DNA of 64,000 nt from Halomicroarcula saliterrae (GTDB lineage Archaea > Halobacteriota > Halobacteria > Halobacteriales > Haloarculaceae). The notes below the pieces were generated by a model. That model was not told the DNA's origin. It ran no database searches and saw only the letters and a list, made by a program, of their open reading frames with translations. The position numbers and the translations under genes were made by a program. The stretch lies in assembly GCF_031624395.1 (NCBI RefSeq), contig NZ_JAMQON010000001.1:806001-870000 (forward strand), read 5' to 3'. This document shows, piece after piece, positions 35,152 through 56,549 of the stretch (positions within the stretch are counted from its first letter, which is position 1; each line of letters opens with the position of its first letter).

Positions 35152-36117
35152 CTACAGCGCCTTTTCGAGTTCTTCTAACGCCTCGATCGTCTGCTGTAAC
35201 TGCGTTTTCGCATCCGACCACGAGATGTCTTCACCGTCTTCCTCGGTCGGTTCCTGATCGGCCTTGCCGCCATCGCTCAGCACCCCTGCTTCACCGTCAG
35301 CGCCGTCTTCCACTGCGTCGAGTCGCTGCTGCGTCTCGGCACCGTCGTCCCCCTCAGCAGGTGGCATCTCTGTTAGTGAGTCACCATCTTCGACATTGGC
35401 CGACGGTCGCCCGCCTCTGTCATCCAACGCGTTTAGAGGGAATGCGTACGCTCTCGCGCGTTTTTCCTTGTGCCACGTTGTCCGCCCCACCACACCGATC
35501 ACATCAGCGACCTCGTCACGGCTACACCCGCGGTCAAGGGCTTGCCGGACACGTTCGTCCTCAGCACGCTGTAACAGGGTTTGCGGGTCATCAGGAATGC
35601 GGCCGCGAGCAGAGTTCGATATCTGCTCAGTGAGGCCCCACTCACCCGTGTCTGCGTCCTGATCGATGATTTGCCGGTCGCGTCCTTCGACCTTATTGTC
35701 GAGGCCCATCAACACCCACAAGCGCTCCCGGACTGCTGTCACGGAGAGATCCGGCGTGAGTTCGTCCACGATGTCACCTGTTCGGATCGGGCCGTGCTCT
35801 GCTAACACTTGGATGATCTCAGCGTCCTGCGGCAGTAATACCGTCGAGTCCGCTTCAGTAAGCTCGACCGGGACTTCGTCGCCCGATGGCTGGTTATGCA
35901 GCCAGTTATGACAGCGCCGGCATACTGCAGTCAGGTTCCTTAAGTCGTGCTCGTCCATCTCGTCGACATCACGCGTCGCGTGATGGATTTGCAGCGCCGC
36001 CACGCCGCCAGCACCCGGACCGTCCCGGCCACACCACTTGCAGCGATGCCCCGCAGCCGCTAACACGTCCTTCCTCGTCTCCGGATCCACCGTCTCGTTC
36101 GACACATCCTCGGTCAT
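35152..36117 (-). CDS. HNH endonuclease, last gene of the RAMP operon
   Basis: A 321-residue protein. An N-terminal HNH nuclease (RCKWCGRDG, LQIHHATRDVDEMDEHDLRNL, CRRCHNWLH: Cys 26/29, His 45-46, Cys 66/69, His 74) is followed by a winged-helix region (about 95-150, IIQVLAEHGPIRTGDIVDEL), an HTH-like segment (CSRDEVADVIGVVGRTTWHKEKRAR) and a coiled-coil acidic tail ending LQQTIEALEELEKAL. It ends the minus-strand operon with the Cas5- and Cas7-like proteins and is a candidate target-cleaving nuclease of that system. Confidence 0.85.
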   Translation of the reverse strand: MTEDVSNETVDPETRKDVLAAAGHRCKWCGRDGPGAGGVAALQIHHATRDVDEMDEHDLRNLTAVCRRCHNWLHNQPSGDEVPVELTEADSTVLLPQDAEIIQVLAEHGPIRTGDIVDELTPDLSVTAVRERLWVLMGLDNKVEGRDRQIIDQDADTGEWGLTEQISNSARGRIPDDPQTLLQRAEDERVRQALDRGCSRDEVADVIGVVGRTTWHKEKRARAYAFPLNALDDRGGRPSANVEDGDSLTEMPPAEGDDGAETQQRLDAVEDGADGEAGVLSDGGKADQEPTEEDGEDISWSDAKTQLQQTIEALEELEKAL

Positions 36118-36121
36118 GCTC

Positions 36122-36298
36122 TCACCTCTCCGTCGATACTGCGTTCTTGATCTGTCGCCGATACGTCACCGTGATCGAACCGCGTTTGTCGTTGCATTTT
36201 GCGTTCATCAGCCGCTTGTTGGCCCCGCGTCGATACCTGGCGTCTACCTGGTGTATCGCTTCAATACCGCCTGTCCTCGCCACACTACTCGCCGTCAA
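36122..36298 (-). CDS. Possible small basic protein in the RAMP operon
   Basis: A 58-codon frame between the exonuclease and HNH genes, with TTG start at 36298 or GTG at 36283. It is basic and ordered-looking (IEAIHQVDARYRRGANKRL, GSITVTYRRQIKNAV) in contrast to most neighbours. Its stop is 4 nt before the HNH ATG. No family recognised. The region could also be a plain spacer, but this frame has good composition and operon-like spacing. Confidence 0.4.
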   Translation of the reverse strand: MTASSVARTGGIEAIHQVDARYRRGANKRLMNAKCNDKRGSITVTYRRQIKNAVSTER

Positions 36299-36308
36299 CT
36301 CGGCCGCG

Positions 36309-36977
36309 TCACCCGTGACTCGTCGGGGTTAACGATTTCACTTGGAAATCCGATTTACTGCAGTACCGTTCCGCGACGCTGCCAAGTGCTGCCGTTCGAA
36401 GCACGTCCGAGACGTTATGCTGAATCACGTCCACGAACCGTCCTTCATTGAACGCGACCACCGCCTCCTTACTGTCATCGAACGGATCGATCTCTCCGAA
36501 CTCGTCACCGCACAGCACGTCGTATGCTGCCGTGAGACTCGACTGTGACTCCCCATCCACGGTCGTGTTGAACAGTTTCCTAATCACCGGGAAGAGGTCC
36601 GCGTACGGCACGTCGAGGAACGGCCAGTCAAGGCCGTTCGCCGCAAATCGGGTTCGAAGGAACGGTACATCGAAGCCACCATTCCACGTTTCACCATTGT
36701 ACGCGACGAGGAGCACGTTATCATCGTAGAGGCGCATCTGCACGAACTCCGCCACCGCCTCTAACAAGGGGGCTTCCGAGTCGTGGACCGACACAATCAC
36801 GTGTTCCTCAACGCGGTCCTGCACGTCCTCTTCGAGCCCGTCACGGGTTCGCTCGGCCGTCTGGCAGAACACACGCACCCCTAATGGGAGACTGAATCCG
36901 ACCACGGTCACGACATCGTCGACGTCAAACCCGGTCGTCTCGATATCGAATGCGACCTGCTCTAACGCGTCGCTCAC
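36309..36977 (-). CDS. DnaQ/DEDD-type 3'-5' exonuclease
   Basis: A 222-residue RNase H-like nuclease. Exo I is VAFDIETTGFD (Asp 11, Glu 13), Exo II is VAYNGETWNGGFDVPFL, and Exo III is HNVSDVLRTAALG with the Asp after a His. This is the DEDD family, which degrades DNA or RNA from 3' ends. It overlaps the Cas5-like gene by 4 nt (ATGA), so it is part of the RAMP operon and a candidate effector or guide-processing nuclease. Confidence 0.85.
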   Translation of the reverse strand: MSDALEQVAFDIETTGFDVDDVVTVVGFSLPLGVRVFCQTAERTRDGLEEDVQDRVEEHVIVSVHDSEAPLLEAVAEFVQMRLYDDNVLLVAYNGETWNGGFDVPFLRTRFAANGLDWPFLDVPYADLFPVIRKLFNTTVDGESQSSLTAAYDVLCGDEFGEIDPFDDSKEAVVAFNEGRFVDVIQHNVSDVLRTAALGSVAERYCSKSDFQVKSLTPTSHG

Positions 36978-37900
36978 GAGGTTGCACCCCCGACACCGAC
37001 GGCGCGTTCCGGCACGCGATCCCGCTTAGCTGGTCGAAGGCGGAACTCACCGAACCCGTACTTCGCATGCGTCCCCACGCGAAGCACGCCATTCTTGGCC
37101 GTTCGAACCGCGTCGGTCCCCGCGAAATCCACCACTTGCCCGTGATCCACCGTCTCAAGTACGTGCACTTCTTCACCGTTCACGAGCCGGGTTTCCCGGC
37201 GACGCAACTCACCGTCAACACCCCACCACCACGGGACGTCCTGCCCGTCAGCCCCCGGGTACTCACTCTCCAGAACGAATGGCGACACGAGCTCTAAGTT
37301 GAGCGCCGTGTCCTCAACGCGGGAGTAGTCTAATTCATCCAATTCAACGAGCTGCGTGTCTTTCAGGGACAGCTCGCCAAGCCCGTAATTCCTGGCTGCC
37401 CCGACACGCAACCCGTCCAGCACATCATCGTCGAGCGGGAGGACATCGTCGTCGTGCCCGCCGTGTACGTAGCACTGCACGAACCACTGGACTGATCGCT
37501 TCGAATTCCGGACGTTCTCGGGCCGCCCAAACCAGCACCGTGGCGCGAACGCGAGTCGCCCACCATGACTCTGGATATCCGGCACGTTATGCGCGTCCCG
37601 AGGCCGGGAATCCAGCAACCATCGTTGTGCGGCGTCTCTGTACAGGAACAAGTCCGCGTAGTTTTCGACCGCCGGAAGCGACTTCCCAAGCACCCCGGCG
37701 TACCCAACTTCGGAATGCGCAGACGGGTACTCCCCGTACTCGCTCGGGACGAACACTCCGTGACTCACCTGTAACTGCTTGCGAGCCCGGGCGTCGACAC
37801 GACGGGCGAGCGCATTGAACAACGCGTTCCCCGTCACGTGATACGCGTGCCCTTGATAGTCCGACTCCAACTCGAACAGTACCTGCTGTACCTGTGTCAT
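36974..37900 (-). CDS. Cas5-like RAMP protein (HRAMP system)
   Basis: A 308-residue protein. The Met at 37900 (MTQVQQVLFELESDYQGHAYHV) is the start, not the longer frame. Two ferredoxin-like folds are suggested by two glycine-rich loops typical of RAMP proteins: GAARNYGLGELSL (about 167-179) and GTHAKYGFGEFRL near residue 280. RAMP proteins bind guide RNA in class 1 CRISPR effectors. The neighbours (Cas7-like, nucleases, no array) fit the derived haloarchaeal RAMP (HRAMP) system, where the second RAMP is Cas5-like. Confidence 0.75.
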   Translation of the reverse strand: MTQVQQVLFELESDYQGHAYHVTGNALFNALARRVDARARKQLQVSHGVFVPSEYGEYPSAHSEVGYAGVLGKSLPAVENYADLFLYRDAAQRWLLDSRPRDAHNVPDIQSHGGRLAFAPRCWFGRPENVRNSKRSVQWFVQCYVHGGHDDDVLPLDDDVLDGLRVGAARNYGLGELSLKDTQLVELDELDYSRVEDTALNLELVSPFVLESEYPGADGQDVPWWWGVDGELRRRETRLVNGEEVHVLETVDHGQVVDFAGTDAVRTAKNGVLRVGTHAKYGFGEFRLRPAKRDRVPERAVGVGGATS

Positions 37901-37940
37901 GCCTTCACACCCCCTGCGCTTCCAGTGGAGAATATCGGGT

Positions 37941-38780
37941 TCACCGTGCATCACCGTCCCCGTACACTGCGACGTAATCCTCGATGTACGCGAGCGCCGT
38001 CGACCACGACCGGACCCGCCGCAACTGCGCATCCAACCGCCGCCACCGCCGGCAACTCTGATCGAACGGATGCGCCGACAACCTGGACCACGTATCCGCA
38101 AACGACCGTGCCGGACACGACCCCAACGGAGCCGACGGCCGGTCCCCCGGCTCGCCCGTTACGTGCAGCGACATGACCGGCGACCACAGGACAGTTCGAA
38201 ACGGCTCAACTGCGTCGGACCCCCGGGCCGCTGCAGCAGTCCTACCTTCGTCCGGCAGCGGGCCTGACGGCGTCGCCACGAGGTGGAGGTCTGCGAACTC
38301 ATGCCCGGCCCGGTAATTATCCAGCAACGCCGCTACGAGCAGCACGTGGAACCTGAGCGAGGTGTACGGGTAATACACCGACTCATTGTACGCTGCCGCG
38401 GCCTCGCTCGTCAACCACCGCGAATGCAGCACTTCGGGATCCGTCGACAACACCAACCAATCCAGCGGCGCATCGTCCGACGCTCGAATCCGATCAGACG
38501 CTACGGCCGTCCCGCCCGTCACGAGCGACAACCGGCGCGGCGACTGGTGATTCGCCACCGTCTCATCAGGCGCGCCTTTCGGCCGCGACAATCGAGCCGC
38601 ATCCCCATCAGCACCCAACGGCACCGACTCGTTCACCCTGGCGTCGCGGAACACCTCTTGAGCCGCATCATGCGACCGGCCCCGCAACTTATGCACATCA
38701 TGGCGAAACGCCGCGACCATTGGATCCACATCTGACTCAGGCCCCTCGTGCGGCGACTCGAACGGCACGTCCGACGTCAC
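37941..38780 (-). CDS. Conserved unknown protein of the HRAMP operon
   Basis: A 279-residue protein lying between the two RAMP genes, sharing 4 nt with the Cas7-like gene. The N-terminal part is polar. The middle has LDWLVLSTDPEVLHSRWL and hydrophobic YNESVYYPYTSLRFHVLLVAALLDNY, and the C-terminus is Arg-rich and helical (RRWRRLDAQLRRVRSW). No known domain is recognised. The HRAMP description includes one uncharacterised conserved protein with Cas5 and Cas7 homologs, and this is the candidate. It might replace the large or small subunit of class 1 complexes. Confidence 0.7.
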   Translation of the reverse strand: MTSDVPFESPHEGPESDVDPMVAAFRHDVHKLRGRSHDAAQEVFRDARVNESVPLGADGDAARLSRPKGAPDETVANHQSPRRLSLVTGGTAVASDRIRASDDAPLDWLVLSTDPEVLHSRWLTSEAAAAYNESVYYPYTSLRFHVLLVAALLDNYRAGHEFADLHLVATPSGPLPDEGRTAAAARGSDAVEPFRTVLWSPVMSLHVTGEPGDRPSAPLGSCPARSFADTWSRLSAHPFDQSCRRWRRLDAQLRRVRSWSTALAYIEDYVAVYGDGDAR

Positions 38781-39721
38781 GCCGCATCACCACCCGGCAC
38801 CGGCAGGTCACCATCACGACGCGCTGTGCGGGCCTGGAGCGCCTCCACGAACTTGTCCCGACACCGCGTCTGCCACAGCTCATCCTTCCGCTCCATCTCG
38901 TTGGTGGGCGACTTCCGCCGATCATACATATTCGACACCTCATCCTCAGAGTACAGCGGGTTCAGGACCTGTGCGTCGACCATGCCCGCGCCGAAATTCC
39001 TCGCGCCCCCAAGTTGGAAGGCATACTCGTCACTATGCGCATCCAGGAACGCGACAGCTTCCAGCAAGAGCCCGACGAACTCAGGCTTCGTCTCCCGCAA
39101 CGTGAGTTTCCACGTCCCCACGAGATTCCCGACCACGTCCCGCGTCGAGTGCCGCAGCGGCTGCCCACCATCCTCCTCGTTCCTGGATCTGACTTGTGTG
39201 TGCAGCTGGCGATAGTGCGCCTCGGCTTCACCCCTCGTGACATCTACTTGGCTACGGACCGGCGAGAACGACACTGGACGACGAATCAACTTCCCCGGTG
39301 ATCCGCCAAACCCACCGAACAGATCGTACACCACACAGCCAGCATCCACATCGTCCTGGCACGACCCTTTCTCATGATACCCGGATTCCAAATCCCGGTC
39401 GTATACGTCCTCAAGTCTAAAGTTCGCATTCGACTCGCCGGGATGGCACGCAGACGCACCTGCCGCCTGCAAAACCGCCTCGCAGCCATGACGCAGCCAT
39501 CCCGACAGCGCGAACGGGGAAATCTGGCCCGCAATCTGGTTCTGTGGGTCGTCAGCTTCGTAGCGATCCGACGACGCATGATGCCGATCGGTTACAATCC
39601 CATCACCCGGAGCCAGCAGCCCGGCATCGAGGCCAACGTACAGATCAGGGAGCATCAGAGCCTCCTCGACAGGTAGCTCGAACTCAATTGGGAGATCAGA
39701 CGTGTCAAAATCGACCATCAC
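38777..39721 (-). CDS. Cas7-like RAMP protein (HRAMP system)
   Basis: A 314-residue protein. Typical Cas7/Csm3-like features are ISPFALSGWLRHGCEAVLQAAG (about 68-89, the helix after the first strand), a central VYDLFGGFGGSPGKL (about 131-145) that looks like the GDLFGG loop of Csm3/Cmr4, and a C-terminal glycine loop LGGARNFGAGMVDA (about 237-250). Multiple copies would coat a guide RNA. It is 4-nt coupled on both sides within the RAMP operon. Confidence 0.8.
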   Translation of the reverse strand: MMVDFDTSDLPIEFELPVEEALMLPDLYVGLDAGLLAPGDGIVTDRHHASSDRYEADDPQNQIAGQISPFALSGWLRHGCEAVLQAAGASACHPGESNANFRLEDVYDRDLESGYHEKGSCQDDVDAGCVVYDLFGGFGGSPGKLIRRPVSFSPVRSQVDVTRGEAEAHYRQLHTQVRSRNEEDGGQPLRHSTRDVVGNLVGTWKLTLRETKPEFVGLLLEAVAFLDAHSDEYAFQLGGARNFGAGMVDAQVLNPLYSEDEVSNMYDRRKSPTNEMERKDELWQTRCRDKFVEALQARTARRDGDLPVPGGDAA

Positions 39722-41909: not shown

Positions 41910-43697
41910 CTATATCCTTTTTGCCACAAGTTCAGCGATCTGTTCCGAGAGGAGATCGTTGATCTCTGTCCCGTCTCTCTCGACAAGACGTTCAAGCACC
42001 ATGGCTGTGGTTCCGCTGAGACTGATGGAGAATTCCTCTTCTGTGTCGGGGATCTCCAAGTGTGTGCGAATGGCGTCTTCGACGAAGGCATCTATCGATT
42101 TGTAATCAGCATCTTCTCCACACAGTGCTCTGATAAGTGTTCGCTGTGTCCCTGTGAGTTCAACCCGTACTGCTGTTGTGGACGTGCTCGTTACCGCTGA
42201 GGTTGCAGGGTCGATACCATCGACTGCCTGTTTGAGATGCGCTCCGACCAAACTCGCAACATCGTCGGATTGCTGGTCTGAGATGAGGAAAGCGATTGTA
42301 GAATCGATTTCAACAGTGATGTTCTCGGAGGCACTAGCGTCGGTTGTGTGCCGAGTGTTGTTCGCTGGCGAGTTCTTCTCGGCGTCTTCCGCGTGATGCT
42401 GGTTCGCCCCAACGTCGTTGTGCTCGGTCCGTTCGGAGACGAAGTTCCAGAACGTGTCGGATTCTGCTCTGAGCTCTGCGAGAGCTTCCTCGGGAACGTA
42501 CTGGATCTGTTCGGATGTTTCGTCGGCGGACACCGCGTTCCAGAACGTCTGCAGGTCGAGATCGATTTCGCTACCGGTCGTGCCGACAAGAAGGTAGGGC
42601 CAGGGACGGTCTGGACCGGCTACGCGAACACCATCGTCGTACTCTGCCCACAGGTCCGGTGTGGCGTTCCAATCGCGGACTGTCTGTTCGACAGTAAACG
42701 TGTGAACTCCTGTCTCCGTCTGACTCATGACGATGTCGCCGGTGTTGACGCGATTCCAGAGTGCCTGTTGCTCCTCCGGCATGCCGAGGACGTATCCGGA
42801 GTCCGCGTCAACCCCCTCGATGACGTTGATATTCTCTACCGGTGTTTCTACAGTCCGTGCGACGCCCTGAACGAGGGTGTCGTCGGTTGGCGTTACGACA
42901 AGGACACCGACGTCTGTCTCATCGGTGTGATCGCTCGCCGCGGCTATGTCATTGAGCAGGTCCTTTGCAGTATCGACCCAATCAGGGCTGTGGTTCCGGA
43001 CACCGAGTATGATTCCGTGCCGCGATTTGTTCCTCACGAGGGCATCGTTCGTTTCGAAAAACGTTCGCAAAACCGACTTGGCATCGTGCTGATCATCCAG
43101 ATAGTAGACGGCTTCAGTCGCCCCACCACCGTTATCAGTACTGCCTTGGCCGCTAGTCATAACGAAGCGCCACATACCGTGTTTCCGATCGCTGACGCTT
43201 GATCCGAGAGGCATCTCTGAACTCGGTGTCGGACCATGTTCACGAAGATAGCGAACATTCTTCGTGGTGTCACGGTGTTCGGGCGGCTCTACCTCACTGA
43301 AATTATACTGTGTCGTCTCGGGGTCGATGCCGGCCGCCTCCAAGGCGAGTACGTACGAACCGAACACGAGTTCGTACGTCTCGATGTCATAGTCGCCGTG
43401 ATCAGCGATATGATCACCGGTCGGAGACCGATCAATTTTGGACGCAACACGCTGTAGATCTTCAACCAGCGTCTCCTGATCAACTCCCGGCGGTGAAATG
43501 TCGGCTGCAAGGCCTGCAGCTTCGAGCGCTCCATACCACGTGTCGAACGTCGAGACGTATTCTCTGATAGTCCCTTCACACTCCGCAGGGACAGTCGACA
43601 CGGTGGGCGGGCCTGCCGCTTCTTTGTCCGCAGCTCGCAAATCTGCGATGAGCTGCTCGCGGCTTACACCTGTCATGCCATGCCTGATGTGATACAT
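41910..43697 (-). CDS. Homing-endonuclease-repeat, EVE-like and triple RHH-like protein
   Basis: A 595-residue protein. Two homing-endonuclease-associated repeats (SREQLIADLRAADKEAAGPP near 12-65 and the TLVEDLQRVASKIDRSPTGD copy near 75-125) come first. A region near 300-390 (ALWNRVNTGDIVMSQTETGVHTF...LWAEYDDGVRV...RPWPYLLVG) resembles an EVE/PUA-like reader of modified bases. The last 135 residues hold three strand-helix-helix units (about 460, 510 and 556) like ribbon-helix-helix. The divergent helicase has the same triple tail. A DNA-recognition role is inferred. Confidence 0.7.
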   Translation of the reverse strand: MYHIRHGMTGVSREQLIADLRAADKEAAGPPTVSTVPAECEGTIREYVSTFDTWYGALEAAGLAADISPPGVDQETLVEDLQRVASKIDRSPTGDHIADHGDYDIETYELVFGSYVLALEAAGIDPETTQYNFSEVEPPEHRDTTKNVRYLREHGPTPSSEMPLGSSVSDRKHGMWRFVMTSGQGSTDNGGGATEAVYYLDDQHDAKSVLRTFFETNDALVRNKSRHGIILGVRNHSPDWVDTAKDLLNDIAAASDHTDETDVGVLVVTPTDDTLVQGVARTVETPVENINVIEGVDADSGYVLGMPEEQQALWNRVNTGDIVMSQTETGVHTFTVEQTVRDWNATPDLWAEYDDGVRVAGPDRPWPYLLVGTTGSEIDLDLQTFWNAVSADETSEQIQYVPEEALAELRAESDTFWNFVSERTEHNDVGANQHHAEDAEKNSPANNTRHTTDASASENITVEIDSTIAFLISDQQSDDVASLVGAHLKQAVDGIDPATSAVTSTSTTAVRVELTGTQRTLIRALCGEDADYKSIDAFVEDAIRTHLEIPDTEEEFSISLSGTTAMVLERLVERDGTEINDLLSEQIAELVAKRI

Positions 43698-43852
43698 AGC
43701 CGTAACTATTTTGCTGCGAAATTAGCCGCAAATCGTGTCTTGGCGTACTTACAACTGAAAATTGCGCGGGAAGGTTTTTGTATTGTACTAACATCCTGTC
43801 GAGTAGTCTAAATTAGTGCGGTATACGAAAGCATACGGGACACACTACACAG

Positions 43853-46800
43853 ATGCCAGGTAACGACCCACTTCAGTCACGGGACGATCACACGACACCG
43901 TCCGAACAGTTCAGGAAAGATAGGCTCGAACGTGACGAGATTGACCCGACGACGTATCCGGCACAGGTCGACCGAGCTGCTGCTGATATTCTTCGTGGTA
44001 TCGCTGTCGGAGCAACTGATGACCCGACAGACATCGGTGGGACAATCGATAAGTTCAATTTCGATTCGGCGACGGGCCAATTCTACACTGAAGGGTTGAT
44101 CGAGATCGCTGGTGAGGATTCCCCGCTTGCAGCGAACCTCCGCGAATACGATTATGAGACAATCGGAGACTTGGCGTTCCAGCTCAATTCGCTGCGGCAC
44201 ACGCTCCGCGAGACCGGCAGTTCGATGGATATCGACCGGGCGTTGGAAGCGTTACTCGAAAAGACGGCGGCGGCAGCAATCGAACGAAGCGTCAAGTCGG
44301 GTGGGAACGACGGAGCCGGGCTCCGGGCACTACGCGACACTGACTCTGTGAGCGATCTAACGGCTCGATTGTTTTCCGACCCGCGTGTCGATGCGTATGC
44401 ACAGGCACTCGTCGAGCAAATACCGGCTTCGGACACTGATTCTGCCGAACTGGTCGAGCAATTAGACGAAGCCCGGATGACCACGCCGCTGTGGAATCAT
44501 CAACGAGAGGCGCTGGAGCGATGGCACACCAACCAACAGCGGGGATACGTCGACATGGCGACAGCAACGGGGAAAACAGTGCTTGGGCTCGCAGCAATCG
44601 CATTGCGATACGGGTCGTTACATCCGACAGATACGTCGGAAGCACCGGAACTGAGAGATACTAGTGACATCCCTGCAGCCGCGACTCGCCCTCGCGTACT
44701 GATTGTGGCCGGCACGGAGCTGTTGCTCGGTCAGTGGCGGGCGGAGTTAGACGAACACCTCGATATCCCGCGTGACCGTACCGAACCGGTTTCGGATGAT
44801 GATCGGATGATCGAACTCTCGTGGGGTGATATCGAGTTCAGAACAGCACAGGGACTCCTCGAAACGCCGGAGTTTACCCGGTACGATTTAGTGATTCTCG
44901 ACGAGGCTCACCGGTACTCCAGTGGGAAGACTGATGGGCGCGGATGGGGGGACCTCTTCGAGGACTTGACAGCCGGAGCGGACGCGATTCTGGCGATGTC
45001 CGGGTCCGTCGACAGTGGCTGGACTGGTGACGAGACAGCTGAGAACGCCCTCGAACAACATCTGGATCAGTGTTATAAATTCGACGTCGCAAAAGCCCGC
45101 CGCGAAGGTGTGATCGCCGACTTCACCTGGCAGGTTCGATACTTGCCTGTGACGGGCGACCGCGTGGACCGCCTCGGGAGTCAGACTCGAATCACTTCGG
45201 CGAGCTACGATTCCGAAACCGGAACGATAAACGCTGATCGGCTGAACGTAGACGCGACAAACCTCCCCACGGACATCGTCGATTATAACGACTTGCGATC
45301 GTTCGTGCAATCGAACAACGGAGGCGACCTCAGATCCAGTTCAACACAGTTTGACGCGTTCGCGTCAGCGCTGCTCGCTCGCAAGCCACTCCGGTGGAAC
45401 ACGGCACCCGATTCGGAAGCCATCGCAGCACTCGTCGCTGAACACGCCCCGGCGCAGAAAACTGTCGTCTTGGTCCGGTCGTACGATGCCGCGGCGGAAC
45501 TCCGCTCTATCTTGACAGAGCGACACGGTATCAGCGATGATGCGATCGTGGCGTTTACTGATTCCTCGGAGGACCGCCTGGAGAAAATCGAGCGGTTTAA
45601 CGAGCTTTCGCAGGGGGTCATAATCGGTCCTGGCGATCTCCTCGGGACCGGTGTCGATATGCCGGACGCAGAGGTTGCGGTAAACGTCTCTCGCGGAGGG
45701 GTGAACGCGTCACTCGTCCAGCGCATCGGTCGAGTCCTTCGCAATCCGACAGGGGACAAAGAAGCCACGTTCTATCATTTAGTTGCTCAACCGCTTGAAA
45801 CGGATGCAATAGATACCGTTGAGGATGGTGCGCAGCTGCTCGAACGTGCAGCGGAGTTCCGCGCGTTGGGTGACACCTTCCGCGAAGTGCCGAGCTACAA
45901 GTCACATGATGATGTGGCTTCGACGCTCGTTACCCTGGAGAATGAAGGGGTGAAATTGTTCGAGCGAATCGACGACGAAACTCAGTTAGTGACAGCTGAC
46001 GAGGCGCACGAACACGTCCGCACGCTCCAAGCGATGGTCTACGATGCGGCCGCAAACGCCGACGACCCTACGGCCCGTGATCGACCGGTCCTGGAATCGT
46101 GGGGCGACGCCTCGACGGGAACTGATCAAACCAGTGAGGAAACCTTCCCACAGCGAAATGCAGCGTACGAGCGGTATCGACTCTCACTTGGCCCGTACCG
46201 CGTTGCAAAGGCCGTCGCAACGCAGTACTACGACACGGCCATTGATATTGAGGAACGGGACGGCCGTTACCACGTCGAATTCGAGGATGACGAGTTAGCT
46301 AGCACTGAGTATCACGAAGACTTCGAGCGGTGGCTCAATAGCTATCGGCAGTGGCGGGAACGCTGTGACAATCGTGACGGGAGTGGCGAACCGGGTTCGC
46401 TACCGCAGTACAAGAGTGAGTGGCCAGAGCCGCCAGAAGACAAAGGGGTAATGCTTCCACGTGAGGTCGTTGATGAAATCGGGATTTCGTACGCGGACGC
46501 TGACCCGATTTTCTTCCCATACGTCGATGGTGAGCTGTATGCGTTACCGCTACCAGACGGCCAGTATTTGACTGTCGACGGGATAACCGAAAGCCCCGAC
46601 GGCCCGTCCGAGGAACCGACCGCCGAGGAAGGCGCTGGATACACTATTGACGCGGTCCTGCTGGCCGCTGCCCGAGCACGCGACGAATCTCTCGACGAGA
46701 CCCTCTCACAAGCGGTCACTGGTTTCCTGAAAGAGGCCATTGAGAAGGATAGCATCGCTAGTGAGGCAAGCGAATCCAACTCCCGGGCAGAGGTAGATGT

Positions 46801-47047
46801 CGAACTTTCAGATAGACATGAGCGGTTACTACAGGCGCTGGCTGAAGAAGAACCAGCAATCGATGGAGTCAGTGACTTACTCGATATCGCACTGCGACAA
46901 GAGTTGGAAGAGACCAGTGATGGTGTCACAATATCACTGGACGGTGTGATGATAGCGGCAGTCCGCTCGCAGATTGATGAGGACACATCGGTCGAGGACC
47001 ACGTCACAAAAACACTCACTGACGCATTAGAACGTAATCTGAACTGA
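43853..47047 (+). CDS. Large SF2 helicase with triple RHH-like C-terminal tail
   Basis: A 1064-residue protein. The N-terminal 210 residues are helical. The SF2 core starts with LWNHQREALERWHT (Q-like motif), Walker A ATATGKT (236-242), VILDEAHRYSSG (DEAH), AMSGSVDSGW, then GTGVDMPDAEVAVNVSRGG and QRIGRVLRNPTG (helicase C motifs V and VI). A segment near 870 (LPREVVDEIGISYADADPIFF) recalls AbrB-like strands. The last 135 residues repeat a ribbon-helix-helix-like unit three times (about 930, 981, 1025). It is divergent from the homing-repeat protein. Confidence 0.85.
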   Translation: MPGNDPLQSRDDHTTPSEQFRKDRLERDEIDPTTYPAQVDRAAADILRGIAVGATDDPTDIGGTIDKFNFDSATGQFYTEGLIEIAGEDSPLAANLREYDYETIGDLAFQLNSLRHTLRETGSSMDIDRALEALLEKTAAAAIERSVKSGGNDGAGLRALRDTDSVSDLTARLFSDPRVDAYAQALVEQIPASDTDSAELVEQLDEARMTTPLWNHQREALERWHTNQQRGYVDMATATGKTVLGLAAIALRYGSLHPTDTSEAPELRDTSDIPAAATRPRVLIVAGTELLLGQWRAELDEHLDIPRDRTEPVSDDDRMIELSWGDIEFRTAQGLLETPEFTRYDLVILDEAHRYSSGKTDGRGWGDLFEDLTAGADAILAMSGSVDSGWTGDETAENALEQHLDQCYKFDVAKARREGVIADFTWQVRYLPVTGDRVDRLGSQTRITSASYDSETGTINADRLNVDATNLPTDIVDYNDLRSFVQSNNGGDLRSSSTQFDAFASALLARKPLRWNTAPDSEAIAALVAEHAPAQKTVVLVRSYDAAAELRSILTERHGISDDAIVAFTDSSEDRLEKIERFNELSQGVIIGPGDLLGTGVDMPDAEVAVNVSRGGVNASLVQRIGRVLRNPTGDKEATFYHLVAQPLETDAIDTVEDGAQLLERAAEFRALGDTFREVPSYKSHDDVASTLVTLENEGVKLFERIDDETQLVTADEAHEHVRTLQAMVYDAAANADDPTARDRPVLESWGDASTGTDQTSEETFPQRNAAYERYRLSLGPYRVAKAVATQYYDTAIDIEERDGRYHVEFEDDELASTEYHEDFERWLNSYRQWRERCDNRDGSGEPGSLPQYKSEWPEPPEDKGVMLPREVVDEIGISYADADPIFFPYVDGELYALPLPDGQYLTVDGITESPDGPSEEPTAEEGAGYTIDAVLLAAARARDESLDETLSQAVTGFLKEAIEKDSIASEASESNSRAEVDVELSDRHERLLQALAEEEPAIDGVSDLLDIALRQELEETSDGVTISLDGVMIAAVRSQIDEDTSVEDHVTKTLTDALERNLN

Positions 47048-47100: not shown

Positions 47101-48048
47101 TCACACAGTTGCATCCACATCCGTTGTGGCGAGTGCTTGCGCGAGGAGTTCCAAATCATCCTTGTATTCCAGTGTGTCAAGCCACCGCTCTGGTAGCTCG
47201 TCTGCCCCGAACCTTGCACCGGCGATCGCACCTGTGACCGCACCAAGTGTATCTGTATCCCCGCCGCGGTTGACTGACGTGATAATCGCGTCTTCGGCGG
47301 TGTCTGTGGTTAGGGCATCGTACAGCGACGTCTGGAGTGTGTGGACAACGTAGCCCGTATTCTCTAACTGCTTCTCACCGACGAGGTCAGGGACGAGGCG
47401 AATCGTTTCCACGAGCTCGTCCGGGGCATCGCCCTCGATTTGTTCAATTGCATCGCTGAGCGGGTCGTCAAACCCGTTGAGATAGCCAGCTATAGTGTGA
47501 TTGAGGAGTACGCACCCGTACTGACATCGTGGGTCATAGTGCGTGATGGCGGAGGACTGCTTGCTGACGCGTTCGAGTGTTTCCGGGGCGTCGGCGAACG
47601 CGATGGCGTGCGGTGCACACCGCATGATACTGCCGTTCCCGGCGTTAGAACCTTCAGCGCGTCGTTGCCAGACTTCTCGACCAGCGTCACGCCACGACGT
47701 ACCGGATTGGTATTCGCTGATAGCGTCGGCGGTCATCAGGCCGACATCGAACGGCCCATCGTCGTACCAAGCTGCGAAGCGGTCAGCGATATCCTGCCCG
47801 TCGAACGCCGCTTGCTCGGCGAGGCTCCTGGCATTACAGAGTGCGAGGTCAGTGTCGTCGGTCACGGTGCCAGCGGTTTTACCGTGCGTGCCGTGACCGA
47901 CCATGTCGGTGAGCGTGCCGTGCTGTTTCGTGATCTGATTCGGGGAGCGGAACTCAACAGGACGCCCTAACGCGTCCCCACAAGCAAGGCCGAGAAGCGT
48001 TCCTTTCGCAGTATCTGCTGAAACCATTGGATGTTTGTTGTATTGCAT
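47101..48048 (-). CDS. ADP-ribosylglycohydrolase
   Basis: A 315-residue (or 308 from the internal Met MVSADTAKG) protein of the ARH fold. Metal-binding motifs are TVTDDTDLALC near residue 62 and SVNRGGDTDTLGAVTGAIAGA near residue 260, plus GSNAGNGSIMRCAPHA. The enzyme removes ADP-ribose from proteins, DNA or RNA. In a defence island it may reverse ADP-ribosylation by a toxin, or act as an effector. A 16-bp palindrome lies just upstream of the ATG. Convergent with the large helicase. Confidence 0.88.
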   Translation of the reverse strand: MQYNKHPMVSADTAKGTLLGLACGDALGRPVEFRSPNQITKQHGTLTDMVGHGTHGKTAGTVTDDTDLALCNARSLAEQAAFDGQDIADRFAAWYDDGPFDVGLMTADAISEYQSGTSWRDAGREVWQRRAEGSNAGNGSIMRCAPHAIAFADAPETLERVSKQSSAITHYDPRCQYGCVLLNHTIAGYLNGFDDPLSDAIEQIEGDAPDELVETIRLVPDLVGEKQLENTGYVVHTLQTSLYDALTTDTAEDAIITSVNRGGDTDTLGAVTGAIAGARFGADELPERWLDTLEYKDDLELLAQALATTDVDATV

Positions 48049-50021: not shown

Positions 50022-50147
50022 CAGCCAGCAGTCCCCCGATCTGGTGTTGGGAATCGGGCGACGGTTTAACAATCAGGTTCGCATGAGTATGGGTATGTTA
50101 GTACAGTTCGTGATTCACGCTGTCAGTTTGCATCGGAACCACTCGTG

Positions 50148-52214
50148 ATGAGCGGGCAGGACAAACTGAGTGGCAGCTTGGTATCAGTCCCATTCGGTCA
50201 ATCTGAAACAGAATCAGCAGTCCGAGACGAATACCGGGAGCTGCGCAACAAGTACGGACCAGAGAACGTACTCGTGTTGACGGGGTCGCCGACGAGCATG
50301 GACTCGTTTGAGGAAGTCCTCGAACCAGAAGTCCCCGGTGCAGGTGTCCCTCGTGTCTCGTCACTCGTGGTGCATGCGACTGACGTGGTCAACGCAGTGA
50401 CTGACGAAGTAATTCTGTCGGATATGTTACGCCGGGAACTCGTACATCGGTTCCTCGCTGACAAGGAATGGGAGTCGGAGTATTTCGAGACCGCGGCTGA
50501 ATTAGATTCCTTTGCCGGAGACGTGGCGCAACTCATGGAGACAGCGACGTGGCAAAGCGCTGCACTCGATACGACACCGGAACTAATCGAGATCGACGAG
50601 ACCATCGCCGAGTTCCAAGCATGGCTCGCTGACCACGGCCACATCGAACGCGGACAGTTGCTGTCGACCGCCATCGAACAGCTCACTGACCCGGAACAGC
50701 GAGATGTCGCGGTTGATGTTGATGCGGTCCTCGCCGTCGAGTTCGAGGAGTTCTTCCCGCTTGATCGACAGTACCTGTCCGCACTGACGACAGATCTTGA
50801 GTTAGTCTGCGTTCGTGAGCGAGCGAGCAGCGTTCGCCGAACTGGCGTAGAGACCGGCCCGGTAACAGACTACGTCTCGCTGACCGACAGTGGTTCCGAG
50901 GCAGAGGCGTCGCCTGCATCGCGGCCGGCGGCGACAGCCCGGTACTTGTCGACCGGTGATGTGCCGGATGACCCGGAGAATGGTGCTGTCACCGTGATGA
51001 GTGCGGAGTCTGGTGATGAGCAGTTTGACCGGATTGCTGATGAGATCGAGCGACTCCGGGAGGTTCACGGGTGGCAGTATGACTCGTTCGCTGTCGCAAC
51101 CGGGCACGGGACTGATGGGGTATCGGACGCGATTCGTGCACTCACGCAGGCAGGTATCCCGACTGAATCGACGACGGTCACCGGGTTCGGTGATGATCCG
51201 GCGATCCGGGAACTGTTGGAAGTCACGCGGTACTACGCTGCTGAAAGTGAGGGTGAGGAGACCCCGTCTGTCGACGAGAGTGAGTTCGATACGGCGCTGC
51301 TGTCGACGATTCGTGCGGAGGAGGACTCGCTTGCGGATGTGTTGCGTCGGTGGGCGACGGCGTCGGGGTTGAAAGATCGGATTGCGACGCGAGCGTCGCC
51401 GCTGGACGCGCGGTCGCAGTTCGGGAACGTCCGACGGGTGTTTTCGATGGCGAAGTTCATCGAGGACACGGAGTTCATCGAGGCGTCGTGGCCCGTATTC
51501 GTGGAGATGCTCGAACGCGCTCACGAACACGCCGAATCGGAAACGCGGACGAGTGCAACGGATCTGGACGGTGGCGTTCGCGTCGACCGGTTAGAATCGC
51601 TGAAGAACGGGTCGTGGCGCGCTGTGTTCGTACCGGATGTCGTCGACCAGGCGTTCCCGGGTGAGCCGTTCCTGACGCGACTATTCCCGCAGGACCGCGT
51701 CGTAGAGATGCCTGATTTTCCCGGTGTAACGGACGTGACGGGGAGTGAGGTCGCGGCGACGTTCCAGACGCAATCGACGGCGTCGAGTGACCCGCTCATG
51801 CAGTATCACGTCGAGCAATCCCGGCGGCGATTGGCGGTCGGTGCGAACGCCGCGTCGGAACGCCTGTATTTCTGCCTATACGACCACGAGAGCAGCGCGC
51901 TAGACGAGAAAGTACAGCCGTCACGGTTCCTCACCGATGCGTATCGGCAGTTGCCGTGGATCCAGGACGAGTCTGATGATGAGATTCGGAGTGAACGGCG
52001 CGCGGAAGAGTTCGTCCTCTCACGAATCGACCGTGCGTTAGCCGACGTGCGGCGAACGCAGAGTCTTGAAATGACAGTGTCTCTCGACGACCTGTCGGGT
52101 GATATCGGTGAGATTCACCGTGTGCTTGACGAGAGTGGCGAACGCGGTGAGGCGATGCGGGAGGCGTTGCAGGCTCGCGTTGACTTTGGGGCCGGGAGGG
52201 TGCGCCGTGAGTGA
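50148..52214 (+). CDS. AddB-like protein (inactivated SF1 helicase fold)
   Basis: A 688-residue protein. No Walker A is present, but a UvrD/AddB-like layout can be seen: an N-terminal VSVPFGQSETESAVRDEYREL, a central DDPENGAVTVMSAESGDEQFDRIADEIERLRE (like motif IV), GVRVDRLESLKNGSWRAVFVPDVVDQAFPG, and SRRRLAVGANAASERLYFCLY (like motif VI). As in AddB/RexB, the fold would lack ATPase activity and act as the scanning partner. It is followed by a Cas4-like gene (8-nt overlap) and an AddA-like gene. Confidence 0.65.
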   Translation: MSGQDKLSGSLVSVPFGQSETESAVRDEYRELRNKYGPENVLVLTGSPTSMDSFEEVLEPEVPGAGVPRVSSLVVHATDVVNAVTDEVILSDMLRRELVHRFLADKEWESEYFETAAELDSFAGDVAQLMETATWQSAALDTTPELIEIDETIAEFQAWLADHGHIERGQLLSTAIEQLTDPEQRDVAVDVDAVLAVEFEEFFPLDRQYLSALTTDLELVCVRERASSVRRTGVETGPVTDYVSLTDSGSEAEASPASRPAATARYLSTGDVPDDPENGAVTVMSAESGDEQFDRIADEIERLREVHGWQYDSFAVATGHGTDGVSDAIRALTQAGIPTESTTVTGFGDDPAIRELLEVTRYYAAESEGEETPSVDESEFDTALLSTIRAEEDSLADVLRRWATASGLKDRIATRASPLDARSQFGNVRRVFSMAKFIEDTEFIEASWPVFVEMLERAHEHAESETRTSATDLDGGVRVDRLESLKNGSWRAVFVPDVVDQAFPGEPFLTRLFPQDRVVEMPDFPGVTDVTGSEVAATFQTQSTASSDPLMQYHVEQSRRRLAVGANAASERLYFCLYDHESSALDEKVQPSRFLTDAYRQLPWIQDESDDEIRSERRAEEFVLSRIDRALADVRRTQSLEMTVSLDDLSGDIGEIHRVLDESGERGEAMREALQARVDFGAGRVRRE

Positions 52215-53115
52215 CGTCGTGTCCGTGTCGCCGACTCGACTCGCAACGTACGCGACGTGTCCGCGCCAATACGAGTACAAGCACGTCCAGAGCGTCTCCT
52301 CGCCCGACGAGACGAAGCTGTATCTCCAACAGGGGAAAGCCTACCACGAAATGATTGAGCGCGTCTGTGACGCCACAGGCCGCGACGATGACCCCGGAGT
52401 CATATACGAGCGAGCGATGGACGTGTTCGATGCGACGTGGACCAAGCACATCGACCCCGAGGACTACGCGTCGAACGCTCACCAAGAGTATCAACGACGG
52501 GAGACCCTTGCTGGCATCAAATCGTTCTTCGACCCGGAGGACGGCGACGGAATCGAACACGCAGAGAAATCGGTGGCGACGGAGAAACGAATCCAGTGTG
52601 AACATGACGGCATCGGACTACACGGGTACACTGACAACGTGCTGCGTGACGGTGACACGCTGCATCTGATTGATTACAAACGGAACGTCAGAGGTGTTCT
52701 CGGGTCTTGGAGTGCTGACCGGCTCGAAGAGCACCTGAACGAGGAAGCCCACGAGGCCCAACGTGTCAAGAACGCGTTCCAGACCGCCACGTACACAGAA
52801 GGCATCAAAGACTCCTCACTGTACGAGCCAGGGATGTCCGTTCGGTTCAGCTTTTACGGGTTGTTGCACTCGACGGAGACAGAAAGCACTCCATCCGGGT
52901 ACACCGTGACGGCGAGTGGCCGACCGCGGGAAACGACCGAAGCGTACGAGGAGTATTACGACACGATTTGGGATCTGATTAGAGCCGCGCACGAAGGTAT
53001 TACAACTGAACGGTTCGCCCCGGACCCGTTTGACCTCATCCAGGCGGAAGCCTGCGACGGTTGTGATTATCAGTCGATGTGTGCGGATTACATCGCTACG
53101 GAGGTTCAGCAATGA
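52207..53115 (+). CDS. Cas4/RecB-like PD-(D/E)XK nuclease
   Basis: A 302-residue protein with a GTG start at 52207 inside the previous gene. The N-terminus (SPTRLATYATCPRQYEYKHVQS) has the CPxxY helix with the first Cys of an Fe-S site. The nuclease motif is LHGYTDNVLRDGDTLHLIDYKRN (Asp, then Asp-x-Lys). Three further Cys (CDGCDYQSMC) lie at the end, completing the 4Fe-4S cluster of the Cas4/AddB type. It overlaps the AddA-like gene by 4 nt. It thus supplies the nuclease that the AddB-like protein lacks. Confidence 0.85.
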   Translation: MSDVVSVSPTRLATYATCPRQYEYKHVQSVSSPDETKLYLQQGKAYHEMIERVCDATGRDDDPGVIYERAMDVFDATWTKHIDPEDYASNAHQEYQRRETLAGIKSFFDPEDGDGIEHAEKSVATEKRIQCEHDGIGLHGYTDNVLRDGDTLHLIDYKRNVRGVLGSWSADRLEEHLNEEAHEAQRVKNAFQTATYTEGIKDSSLYEPGMSVRFSFYGLLHSTETESTPSGYTVTASGRPRETTEAYEEYYDTIWDLIRAAHEGITTERFAPDPFDLIQAEACDGCDYQSMCADYIATEVQQ

Positions 53116-56100
53116 CTGACGGAAATGGAGATCTGCCGGCGTGGCTCCCGACGATAGAGGAGGACGTTGACCCGAAGGACCAGCAAAAGAAGATTATCAG
53201 GTCGGGGGAGTACCCGATGCGGGTGTTGGCGGGTGCGGGGACCGGGAAGACGTTCACGATGGTCCGGAAGATCGAGCACCTCATCGACGAGGAAGGCGTG
53301 TCTCCGGACCGGATTCTCGCGTTGACGTTCACGAACAACGCGGCCGATTCGATGCAGGAAAAACTGCAGGAAAAACTCGGGACCGCCGGGTACGACATTG
53401 ACGCGTACACGTACCACTCGATCTGTAACGCGATCTTGCAGGACTACGCGTACACGGCCGGGATCGACCCGGATTTCGACGTGGCAACGGACGCCGAGAA
53501 GTACGCCGTGGCACTGGAGGTGCTCGACGAAATCGAGTACCGGGCGGTCAAGCCGAACGTCTACGGCCCGAACTCACACGGCAGTGGTGCAGCTGACGCA
53601 CTCACCGGCTTCATCAGCTCGATGAAACGCAGCGGTATCGACCCGGACGCTATCGACGCGTACCTCGGCTCGGCTGAGCGATTGTACGAACTCGCAGACA
53701 TTCCGGAAACCATCGAAGACGCCGCGAGCGACAACCTCGGCGGGCGGTCCGTCTCTACCGTACTCGATGGTCTGCCGGCAGTCAGGGAAGCACTGGTTGA
53801 GGCACGCGAAGCTATCGGCGACGATGGCGTTGAAGCTAGCATATCGGTTTTCCTCGACGGCGCCATCGCAGTGTGTGACTCGCTCATCGCGGCGTCCGAA
53901 GCCGCCGAGTCTGGCGACCGTGACCTGCCGGAGAACGCGCACAAGATTCCGAAGTACCTGTTCGGCGGGTACGCCAGTGGCGCGCCGAAAGGCATCCCGG
54001 AGGTCGGCCTGGAACTCCCCGAGTACCTCGCTGACTTTCTGGATGATTGCCTGCACGCCCGCGACCTTGTCGCCGGGTACGACGCGTACGAACAAGAATT
54101 AGCCGAGCGTGGACTCCTCGATTACGACGACCTCGTCGTCGAGACGGTCAAACTCTTACAAACTGACGCGGTCGACGATATCGCGGGCCGGTGGGACTAC
54201 GTGTTCTGCGACGAGTTCCAGGACACCGACCGGTTACAGTTCGACCTCGTCACGTCCCTCGTCAGCAACGAGAACCTGTTCGTCGTCGGCGACGACGACC
54301 AGGCGATCTACGAGTGGCGCGGCGCGAACGTCGCCAACATCACTGACGAACTCGACGATGAGTTCGGCGACGCGCTTGCGGACGAACCCCTCGAACAGAA
54401 CTTCCGGTCCCGACAACCGATTCTCGACCTCGCCAACGCCGCACTTGGGGAACTCGACGACCGGAAAAGCGACAAGACGCTCACCCGCGTCGACGAGCCG
54501 GACTACGACGGCGACAGCGTCGTCACGGTCGAAGAGGCCGATGACGAATCCGACCGGGCCGACCAGCTCGTCACCGTCGTCCAGAATATGCTGTCAGGAG
54601 CTGCCGGCGAAATCAACCGGGCGTACGACCCCGGCGATATCGCGTTACTCGTTCGGAAGAATAAGCACGCCGAGCCACTTGTCGACCGGTTCGAGGACCT
54701 CGGGATTCCGTACGAAGTAGCCGGCGACTTAGCGACGGATTCAGTCGGTGTCGGCACGGTCATCGCGTACCTCAAAGCACTCGCCCGACCAGAGGACGAC
54801 GAAGTCAGTTGGAACCGCGTGTTGACGATGCGGTACCGCCTCGCTGACGCGGACCTCCGGCACCTCAACACGCGAGACGATGCTCTCGTCACAGCCCTGC
54901 TTGAGGCACCGCTGTCGGAGTTCGAGGAACCGGACCGCGTCGAAACCGCGAGAACCCACGTGTCGCATCTACTGGAGCTTCGGGACAGCGCATCACTTGC
55001 GCGCCTTTACCGCGAACTGACGGACCTGACCGACATCGAGTGGTATCTCAGCGAACAGGACCGTCGGAGTCTTGACCAGTTAGAGGACGTCATCGAACAG
55101 TTCGGTGACGACGCGGTCCAGCCGTCGCTCACCGGGGAGTTCGTCGAGACGCTTCGGCACCACGACGAGGTCTTCGCCGAGAACGGCGGGACGCCGACAG
55201 ACCAGCCGGAGTTAGCTGACGACGCGGTCAACGTCATGACGATCCACAAGAGCAAGGGACTGGACTTCCCGGTCGTCCTGATGCCGCGACTCACGGCCGA
55301 CGAGTGGGGGCCACGTGGCCGCTCGTACGACGCGCTGGAAGCCTCACTGACCGACGGCCCTGAAGCGGCGTTCGCAGAGGACTTGGTCGCCAACGACGCC
55401 CGGGAAACGCGGCGTGTCCTCCACGTCGGCCTGACACGCGCCGAGGACGTACTCGTCCTGCACGGATCGAGCGAAGACGATGACGCGAGTGACGATGAAA
55501 TGGAGGACTTCCTCCGGGAAACACTCACACCGGGACTGCCGTGGGAACCGGACGCCGACCATCTCCCTATCTGGCGGGACATCCAGCACTGTCTCCCGCC
55601 GGAAGCCGCCGACTGGACAGACTCACTTGCTGCGACCGTCATCGGTGACCTCGGTGGAACGGTGACGCACAACGGCGATGCTATTAACACCGAAACAGCC
55701 CGGGAGGAAGTCCTCACACTCGGCACCGACCTGGCAGCAGGAGCCGTGGAACGCACTGCACCGTCTCGACTCACGCTTGAGTCGCTTACCAGCGCGCCCG
55801 ACGTTGCTCCAGAAATCCAGCACAGCTATACGTCGCTCAAATCGTTCGAAGACTGCCCGCGGCAACACTACCTAGACTACGTTGTCAACGCGTTCCGTGA
55901 TTACACTCCGAACGACGAGGAATGGACCGAGACAGACACCGGCCCGTCACAGCAAACCGTCGGGATACTGTTCCACGACACGGCCGAAATCGCGGCCGAC
56001 GAGAACGCGTCGTCACCAGCCGAATGGTACGAGATCTGTGAGCGACTCGCTAATCAAAAGCGGGCCCACGACGCACTCCCCGACGCGAAGGCGTGTATCG

Positions 56101-56549
56101 ATCGGTACTTCGAACTCGAACTCAGCGAGTGGGACGTCGTCGACGCGGAACGCGAGTTCGCCATGGAGATCGACGGTGAGGAAATAGTCGGGTACATCGA
56201 CGCCGTCTACCGCACCCCCGCCGACGAACTCGTCGTTATCGACTACAAAGCCACGCAACGCGAACGAGACATCGAAGCCAATCGGCAGTTACCACTCTAC
56301 CTGCTCGCGTGCCGCGACCTGTACGACGAGCCAATCCATAGCGCCGGGTACGCGTACGTCGGTCCGCTCGGTCCGAAAACCGAGACAAAGATCTTCTCTG
56401 AGAGTGATTTACAGGACGTCAAGGAGGAAATTGAGAAGTTGCTCTCAACGATTAGTAACCTCACATACGACGAGTTCGTCGCTGACGCGCACTGCCAGTG
56501 GTGTACTCACAACGAGCTACCGTGTGCAGCGCCCCTCCCGACAGAATGA
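53112..56549 (+). CDS. UvrD/AddA-like helicase-nuclease
   Basis: An 1145-residue protein. The SF1A helicase core: Walker A LAGAGTGKT (40-47), LALTFTNNAADSMQEKL, VFCDEFQDTDRLQFDLV (motif II), VVGDDDQAIYEWRGAN (III), QNFRSRQPIL (IV), MTIHKSKGLDFPVVLMP (V) and VLHVGLTRAEDVLVLHG (VI). The C-terminal 200 residues hold a PD-(D/E)XK nuclease (FEDCPRQHYLDY, VVIDYKATQRERD, CQWCTHNELPC with Fe-S cysteines). This is the AddA/RecB organisation. The three genes together resemble an archaeal AddAB-like DNA-end resection or restriction machine. Confidence 0.9.
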   Translation: MTDGNGDLPAWLPTIEEDVDPKDQQKKIIRSGEYPMRVLAGAGTGKTFTMVRKIEHLIDEEGVSPDRILALTFTNNAADSMQEKLQEKLGTAGYDIDAYTYHSICNAILQDYAYTAGIDPDFDVATDAEKYAVALEVLDEIEYRAVKPNVYGPNSHGSGAADALTGFISSMKRSGIDPDAIDAYLGSAERLYELADIPETIEDAASDNLGGRSVSTVLDGLPAVREALVEAREAIGDDGVEASISVFLDGAIAVCDSLIAASEAAESGDRDLPENAHKIPKYLFGGYASGAPKGIPEVGLELPEYLADFLDDCLHARDLVAGYDAYEQELAERGLLDYDDLVVETVKLLQTDAVDDIAGRWDYVFCDEFQDTDRLQFDLVTSLVSNENLFVVGDDDQAIYEWRGANVANITDELDDEFGDALADEPLEQNFRSRQPILDLANAALGELDDRKSDKTLTRVDEPDYDGDSVVTVEEADDESDRADQLVTVVQNMLSGAAGEINRAYDPGDIALLVRKNKHAEPLVDRFEDLGIPYEVAGDLATDSVGVGTVIAYLKALARPEDDEVSWNRVLTMRYRLADADLRHLNTRDDALVTALLEAPLSEFEEPDRVETARTHVSHLLELRDSASLARLYRELTDLTDIEWYLSEQDRRSLDQLEDVIEQFGDDAVQPSLTGEFVETLRHHDEVFAENGGTPTDQPELADDAVNVMTIHKSKGLDFPVVLMPRLTADEWGPRGRSYDALEASLTDGPEAAFAEDLVANDARETRRVLHVGLTRAEDVLVLHGSSEDDDASDDEMEDFLRETLTPGLPWEPDADHLPIWRDIQHCLPPEAADWTDSLAATVIGDLGGTVTHNGDAINTETAREEVLTLGTDLAAGAVERTAPSRLTLESLTSAPDVAPEIQHSYTSLKSFEDCPRQHYLDYVVNAFRDYTPNDEEWTETDTGPSQQTVGILFHDTAEIAADENASSPAEWYEICERLANQKRAHDALPDAKACIDRYFELELSEWDVVDAEREFAMEIDGEEIVGYIDAVYRTPADELVVIDYKATQRERDIEANRQLPLYLLACRDLYDEPIHSAGYAYVGPLGPKTETKIFSESDLQDVKEEIEKLLSTISNLTYDEFVADAHCQWCTHNELPCAAPLPTE

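Follow-up and report, generated by a model that had tools for sequence, protein, structure and literature searches.

The window, that is, the whole stretch of 64,000 nucleotides of Halomicroarcula saliterrae DNA that was analysed, contains two divergent genes whose products, here called P1 and P2, end in similar tails. The features of this locus and of tailed proteins in other loci are collected in Table 1. A re-check of both open reading frames gave the lengths, strands and divergent gap that were first claimed for them in an earlier note on this DNA. P2 is an SF2 helicase with ResIII (E 1e-11) and Helicase_C (E 1e-8) domains in the Pfam search and with the motifs TATGKT, DEAH and QRIGR. P1 begins with two HNH_repeat (homing endonuclease associated repeat) domains (Pfam search, E 1.3e-20), followed by a middle region, here called the reader, and by the tail. 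Relatives of P1 with the same tail have 46% identity in G265 and about 45% in G342.

Table 1. Positions of features in the window and, with L-numbered locus, of tailed proteins elsewhere
Feature	Position	Strand	Basis or remark
HRAMP-type operon: HNH, RNase H-like, Cas5-like, Cas7-like	35152..39721	-	context, outside the tail pair
SF2 helicase related to PbeA	40070-41839	+	first possible start at Walker A motif
P1, 595 aa	41910..43697	-	ORF; two HNH_repeat domains, middle region, triple RHH tail
P1 tail unit 3, residues 556-595	41913..42032	-	AlphaFold2, unit HMM; ribbon strand unpaired in model
P1 tail unit 2, residues 510-549	42051..42170	-	AlphaFold2 model, unit HMM
P1 tail unit 1, residues 460-495	42213..42320	-	AlphaFold2 model, unit HMM
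P1 middle reader region, residues 131-425	42423..43307	-	common to HNH-ended P1-like proteins
P1 HNH_repeat (PF18780) x2, about residues 12-66 and 74-125	43323..43664	-	Pfam
Divergent intergenic region, 155 nt	43698..43852		P1 and P2 transcribed away from each other
P2, 1064 aa SF2 helicase with triple RHH tail	43853..47047	+	ORF; ResIII, Helicase_C
P2 tail unit 1, residues 930-966	46640..46750	+	AlphaFold2 model, unit HMM
P2 tail unit 2, residues 981-1020	46793..46912	+	AlphaFold2 model, unit HMM
P2 tail unit 3, residues 1025-1064	46925..47044	+	AlphaFold2, unit HMM; ribbon strand unpaired in model
ADP-ribosylglycohydrolase	47101-48048	-	E 4e-75; immediately after P2, convergent
AddB-like, PD-(D/E)XK, UvrD (AddA-like) genes	50145..56549	+	downstream context; UvrD-type matches
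TFB-like proteins with triple RHH tail	L067:6515-7765, L068:11652-12944, L131:10493-11743		divergent from tailed helicase, Haloferax
Tailed family of 572-575 aa	L067:3254-4972, L111:7363-9081, L113:7533-9260
BRCT + triple RHH tail	L112:8510-9382, L114:8422-9222, L115:8709-9914, L116:8530-9507
Bare triple RHH tail protein, no other domain	L121:13280-13726	+	Halorubrum lipolyticum operon, between two tailed proteins

The genomic island and the helicase relatives

The gene pair lies in an island that also holds a Mrr-type nuclease and a VWA protein. The HRAMP-type operon was recognized by Pfam matches to HNH and RNase_H_2 and by a weak Cmr3 match, and its name is given by resemblance. HRAMP is a derived CRISPR-Cas system of haloarchaea, according to PMC8730458, which refers to Makarova et al. 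2019. The operon is 5 kb from P2 in the window; linkage alone ties it to the tail pair, and the two have no domain in common. The Cas7-like gene of such operons occurs in 92 of 387 haloarchaeal genomes, and a P2-family helicase is found at most 40 kb from it in 8 of the 18 genomes with both, against a rough chance expectation of 5%. In the other five tail-pair genomes, no Cas7-like gene was found near the tail pair. The AddAB-like genes of the window match by blastp those directly after P2 in Haloferax, with the caveat that only position and size speak for the name AddB at 50145-52214. The context of an HRAMP-type operon, AddAB-like genes and nucleases points to defence, in which the tail-pair locus would then take part. 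As for a viral origin, no relative of P2 was confirmed in viral contigs.

The helicase core of P2 matches PbeA (E 1e-22). Membership of the PbeABCD/Dnd systems calls for a helicase above the curated cut-off, and P2 falls far below that of the Dnd-type restriction helicase (55 bits against 600 for NCBIfam dnd_restrict TIGR04095). The second SF2 helicase of the island, at 40070-41839, was rejected as a third member of the set because it has no tail and because no possible start precedes its Walker A motif. The N-terminal part that this helicase lacks is present in frame directly upstream, where there is no start codon; only the C-terminal part of a helicase of this type is retained beside P1 and P2 in G265.

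Homology and predicted fold of the tails

Each tail is about 138-141 residues long and is built of three strand-helix-helix units. When three P1 tails were compared with six P2 tails, profile against profile, 122 columns aligned (E 2e-11, 97% probability). The common tail that the earlier note had proposed is real at the level of sequence profiles: the tails of P1 and P2 are homologous. The six units were compared by a single-unit HMM, trained with the window sequences left out and the relatives of P1 and P2 kept in, which found three units and no more in the tail of either protein, in the right order. They are at residues 460-486, 512-548 and 557-592 of P1 and 931-955, 981-1020 and 1025-1063 of P2, and the one match outside the two tails had a negative score. 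Judged singly against the best of about 500 shuffles per protein, the second unit of each protein and the third of P1 scored higher, whereas the first unit of each and the third of P2 are weak. The tail has no family of its own in Pfam, NCBIfam or PADLOC.

Structure prediction by AlphaFold2 gave both tails one fold, three times beta-alpha-alpha, and not the unrelated folds that would have spoken against a common module. The mean pLDDT is 82 for the P2 tail and about 65-87 for most of the P1 tail. Strands 1 and 2 are the only ones assigned in either model, and the third is unpaired within its chain. In fold comparisons, units 1 and 2 superposed on F TraY, with Z 11.1 over 91 residues at 2.1 A for P2 and Z 9.0 over 88 residues at 3.0 A for P1; permuted single-chain Arc also superposed on units 1 and 2 in the P2 comparison. 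Unit 3 matched single protomers instead: CopG (1ea4_E, Z 5.8) and MatP (Z 5.4) for P1, and MatP (Z 4.4) for P2. A PDB profile search with the tail family gave weak matches to RHH (ribbon-helix-helix) antitoxins and NikR (E 0.02-0.6). Pfam RHH_1 was matched in related tails at a best E of 7.8e-6, and just over the cut-off in the 572-aa tailed protein; the P1 tail itself has no Pfam RHH match. The RHH superfamily is characterized by a beta-alpha-alpha unit, two of which make a ribbon and four helices, and both predicted tails have this arrangement. The suggested RHH character of the tails is upheld by these matches to TraY, CopG and MatP and by RHH_1 in related tails. Since the TraY match covers units 1 and 2 and the CopG and MatP matches cover unit 3, each modelled tail is most likely one closed RHH followed by one open half.

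In F plasmid TraY, a single chain folds as an RHH dimer with two halves, and the protein binds oriT DNA (PMC12117103). The tails differ from it by a third half and by acidic ribbons. CopG, Arc and MatP are DNA-binding homodimers in nature and are not known as docking tails of other proteins.

The middle of P1 is a different matter. It had been called EVE-like, a name that was not confirmed: no PF01878/EVE match was found in Pfam, no PDB profile match was significant (UPF0310 protein PH1033 came only at E 1.4), and the model has a pLDDT below 60 there. APOBEC-like fold matches of P1 (Z 5-6) were set aside because they fall in this poorly modelled stretch. The region does recur in P1-like proteins that have no tail, in G200, G390, G349 and a Halobacterium plasmid, where about the first 420 residues are common at 32-36% identity. 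These proteins have an HNH nuclease-like domain at their C-terminus, seen in the alignment and as an HNH_2 match in G200. The tail and the nuclease therefore fill one and the same position behind a common reader.

Linkage of tailed genes and exchange of partners

A survey of 392 haloarchaeal genomes identified P2-family helicases in 43 of them and complete triple tails in about 15, and a second draw of the tail survey gave the same picture. A tailed P2 helicase occurs in six genomes (G000, G265, G342, G320, G126 and G382), and in each of them the locus also codes for one or two additional proteins with the tail. Of the 37 genomes whose P2 relatives are untailed, none encodes a tail at the helicase locus. 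The linkage is significant by Fisher's test (p 1.6e-7), also when the cases are reduced to three independent configurations (p 1e-4), which are few independent events. A seventh tail pair is present on the Haloferax lucentense plasmid pSVX82-3. The pairing of tailed genes thus recurs in other genomes.

The identity of the partner varies. P1 stands beside P2 in three genomes, those of the window, G265 and G342 (Halorientalis sp. LUM.68), and the two are always divergent; in the G265 assembly, the coding sequence of the P2 helicase runs across more than one frame. The divergent partner in Haloferax marisrubri, H. marinum and H. lucentense is a TFB-like protein with TFIIB repeats (E 4e-21), and H. 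marisrubri has a 572-aa protein as a second tailed partner. The locus of H. lucentense reads CoiA-like, TFB-tail, helicase-tail, PD-(D/E)XK (AddB-like), UvrD (AddA-like), AAA ATPase, VWA, MBL. In Halorubrum lipolyticum, three consecutive co-oriented genes code for the tailed helicase, then for a triple tail that stands alone, and then for an HNH_repeat protein that has the tail and a middle region LAGLIDADG-like by eye. Comparison of these loci shows that the tailed partner has been exchanged across haloarchaea while the helicase and its tail stay, and the tail, carried on at least seven different front ends, behaves as a mobile module. In G078, a tailed protein of the 572-575 aa family lies about 3 kb from an HRAMP-type operon.

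In a tree of the tails, they cluster by the type of their carrier and not by locus. The tails have thus become specialised for the proteins that carry them and are no new copies, and the tree gives no support to a recent duplication of the tail within the locus. The bare Halorubrum tail falls with the P1 tails (support 80/81, on a long branch).

Lone tails also exist. They are found on BRCT proteins (four genomes), on another LAGLIDADG-like protein and on a 389-aa protein, and no second tailed protein was found with them. We found no earlier description of a BRCT protein with a triple RHH tail. The neighbours of the BRCT-tail genes include an Eco57I methylase and a SNF2-PLD helicase in L114 and DUF499 and DUF1156 genes in L112.

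Possible function of the triple tail

We lean slightly towards the view that the triple RHH tail serves as a module for docking at the C-terminus, and that unit 3 of P1 and unit 3 of P2 thereby form a complex of reader and helicase. In the docking model, units 1 and 2 would close in cis into one RHH, as in F TraY, and unit 3 would remain a half RHH whose ribbon strand is open and in need of a partner. Pairing of the two third units would then join P1, which resembles a DNA-recognition protein, to P2. P1 would pick the DNA and P2 would move or open it; the last step may fall to nucleases of the island, either AddAB-like or other ones. Across haloarchaea, the common helicase would keep its tail while its recognition subunits are swapped. 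The model predicts specialised halves of a pair, which fits the clustering of tails by carrier type. Physical pairing through unit 3, target recognition by P1 and a part in defence are presumed in this scheme. The earlier note had offered assembly through the tails or binding of a common operator; linkage and partner swapping support the former indirectly, whereas the latter found no support.

The tails could instead pair with themselves, giving separate dimers of P1 and P2 that are adjacent since they serve one pathway and form no complex. The lone BRCT tails point in this direction, as tails for which no tailed partner was detected in the genome may self-pair or do something else, and an odd number of RHH halves suits a homodimer as well as a heterodimer. 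Self-pairing does not account for the fact that a tailed helicase always has a tailed neighbour, nor for the bare tail of Halorubrum, and we regard it as unlikely.

To a similar degree improbable is that the tails are DNA-binding domains by which both proteins bind the same element, an operator or a target, through RHH ribbons. RHH proteins usually bind DNA, and F TraY, the closest fold, does so via its strands (PMC12117103). The 572-aa tailed protein has basic ribbon residues of the kind that DNA binding would use (VQVRVD, LTVRVP). Against this, all nine P1 and P2 tails carry E or D at the last of the positions that would face DNA in the ribbon of unit 2, and no inverted repeat common to the three P1-P2 intergenic regions was found. 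Taken together, these two observations make direct DNA binding by the P1 and P2 tails less likely. The proteins of haloarchaea are generally acidic, and a stand-alone RHH of the window genome also has an EVDVEL ribbon, so the argument from acidic ribbons is only suggestive. A mobile RHH domain fused by chance to P1 and P2, which would then have no role in common, would agree with the seven or more front ends of the tail, but this is very improbable given that complete tails occur in only about 15 of 392 genomes and yet every tailed helicase has a tailed neighbour in its locus.

Docking through a domain common to two proteins has a precedent. The effector-associated domains (EADs) of prokaryotic conflict systems are small non-enzymatic terminal domains on two proteins of adjacent genes, for which a coupling function was proposed (Kaur et al. 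2020, PMC7159879). They are mostly alpha-helical and predicted to pair homotypically, copies in adjacent genes tend to be closest relatives, and direct fusions replace the EAD elsewhere (PMC7159879). The tail pair shares with them the same terminal domain on a core component, P2, and on its adjacent partner, P1, as well as the replacement of the tail by a direct fusion, here of an HNH nuclease to P1-like readers. It differs in that adjacent tails are not each other's closest relatives and cluster by carrier, and in that the domain is a triple RHH on an SF2 helicase in haloarchaea. The statement that no named system has this layout holds against Pfam, NCBIfam and PADLOC, while a terminal adaptor common to the products of adjacent genes follows a known logic, the EAD principle (PMC7159879). 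Modification-dependent restriction, with its reader, motor and nuclease, offers another likeness: in one genome, G200, an HNH-ended P1-like reader sits between a SNF2-PLD helicase and an Eco57I-type methylase. The tail pair differs in that its reader and its motor are two distinct proteins, the tails of which match.

A wider reading, which we advance tentatively and hold to be somewhat less probable than its opposite, is that the tail, with two RHH halves closed in cis and one open, is a standard plug of haloarchaea. One helicase would take interchangeable recognition subunits, namely homing-repeat readers, TFB-like factors and LAGLIDADG-like proteins, in a modular defence architecture not described before. 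If this were true, a fold familiar from gene regulation would have come to serve as a protein plug, by which a common helicase exchanges its DNA-recognition subunits. Complete triple tails would be a searchable signature for further haloarchaeal defence proteins, such as the TFB-tail, BRCT-tail and 572-aa families, and the tails would provide a ready-made docking pair for protein engineering at high salt.

Untailed P2 relatives may have a comparable arrangement with other domains. In five loci, an accessory domain other than the tail is common to the helicase and an adjacent protein: HhH in G380 and G144, an OB-like domain in G272 and on Halorubrum lipolyticum contig 39, and an unnamed stretch in G282. 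Such sharing with a neighbour of the helicase was seen in 5 of 78 gene pairs, versus 8 of 592 neighbouring gene pairs of the same loci (p 0.011, with some loci related), which is only suggestive of domain sharing beyond chance. At L072:6797-12273, HhH (47% identity) forms the end of an untailed P2-family helicase as well as that of the protein encoded divergently beside it, and the two genes adjoin an HRAMP-type operon.
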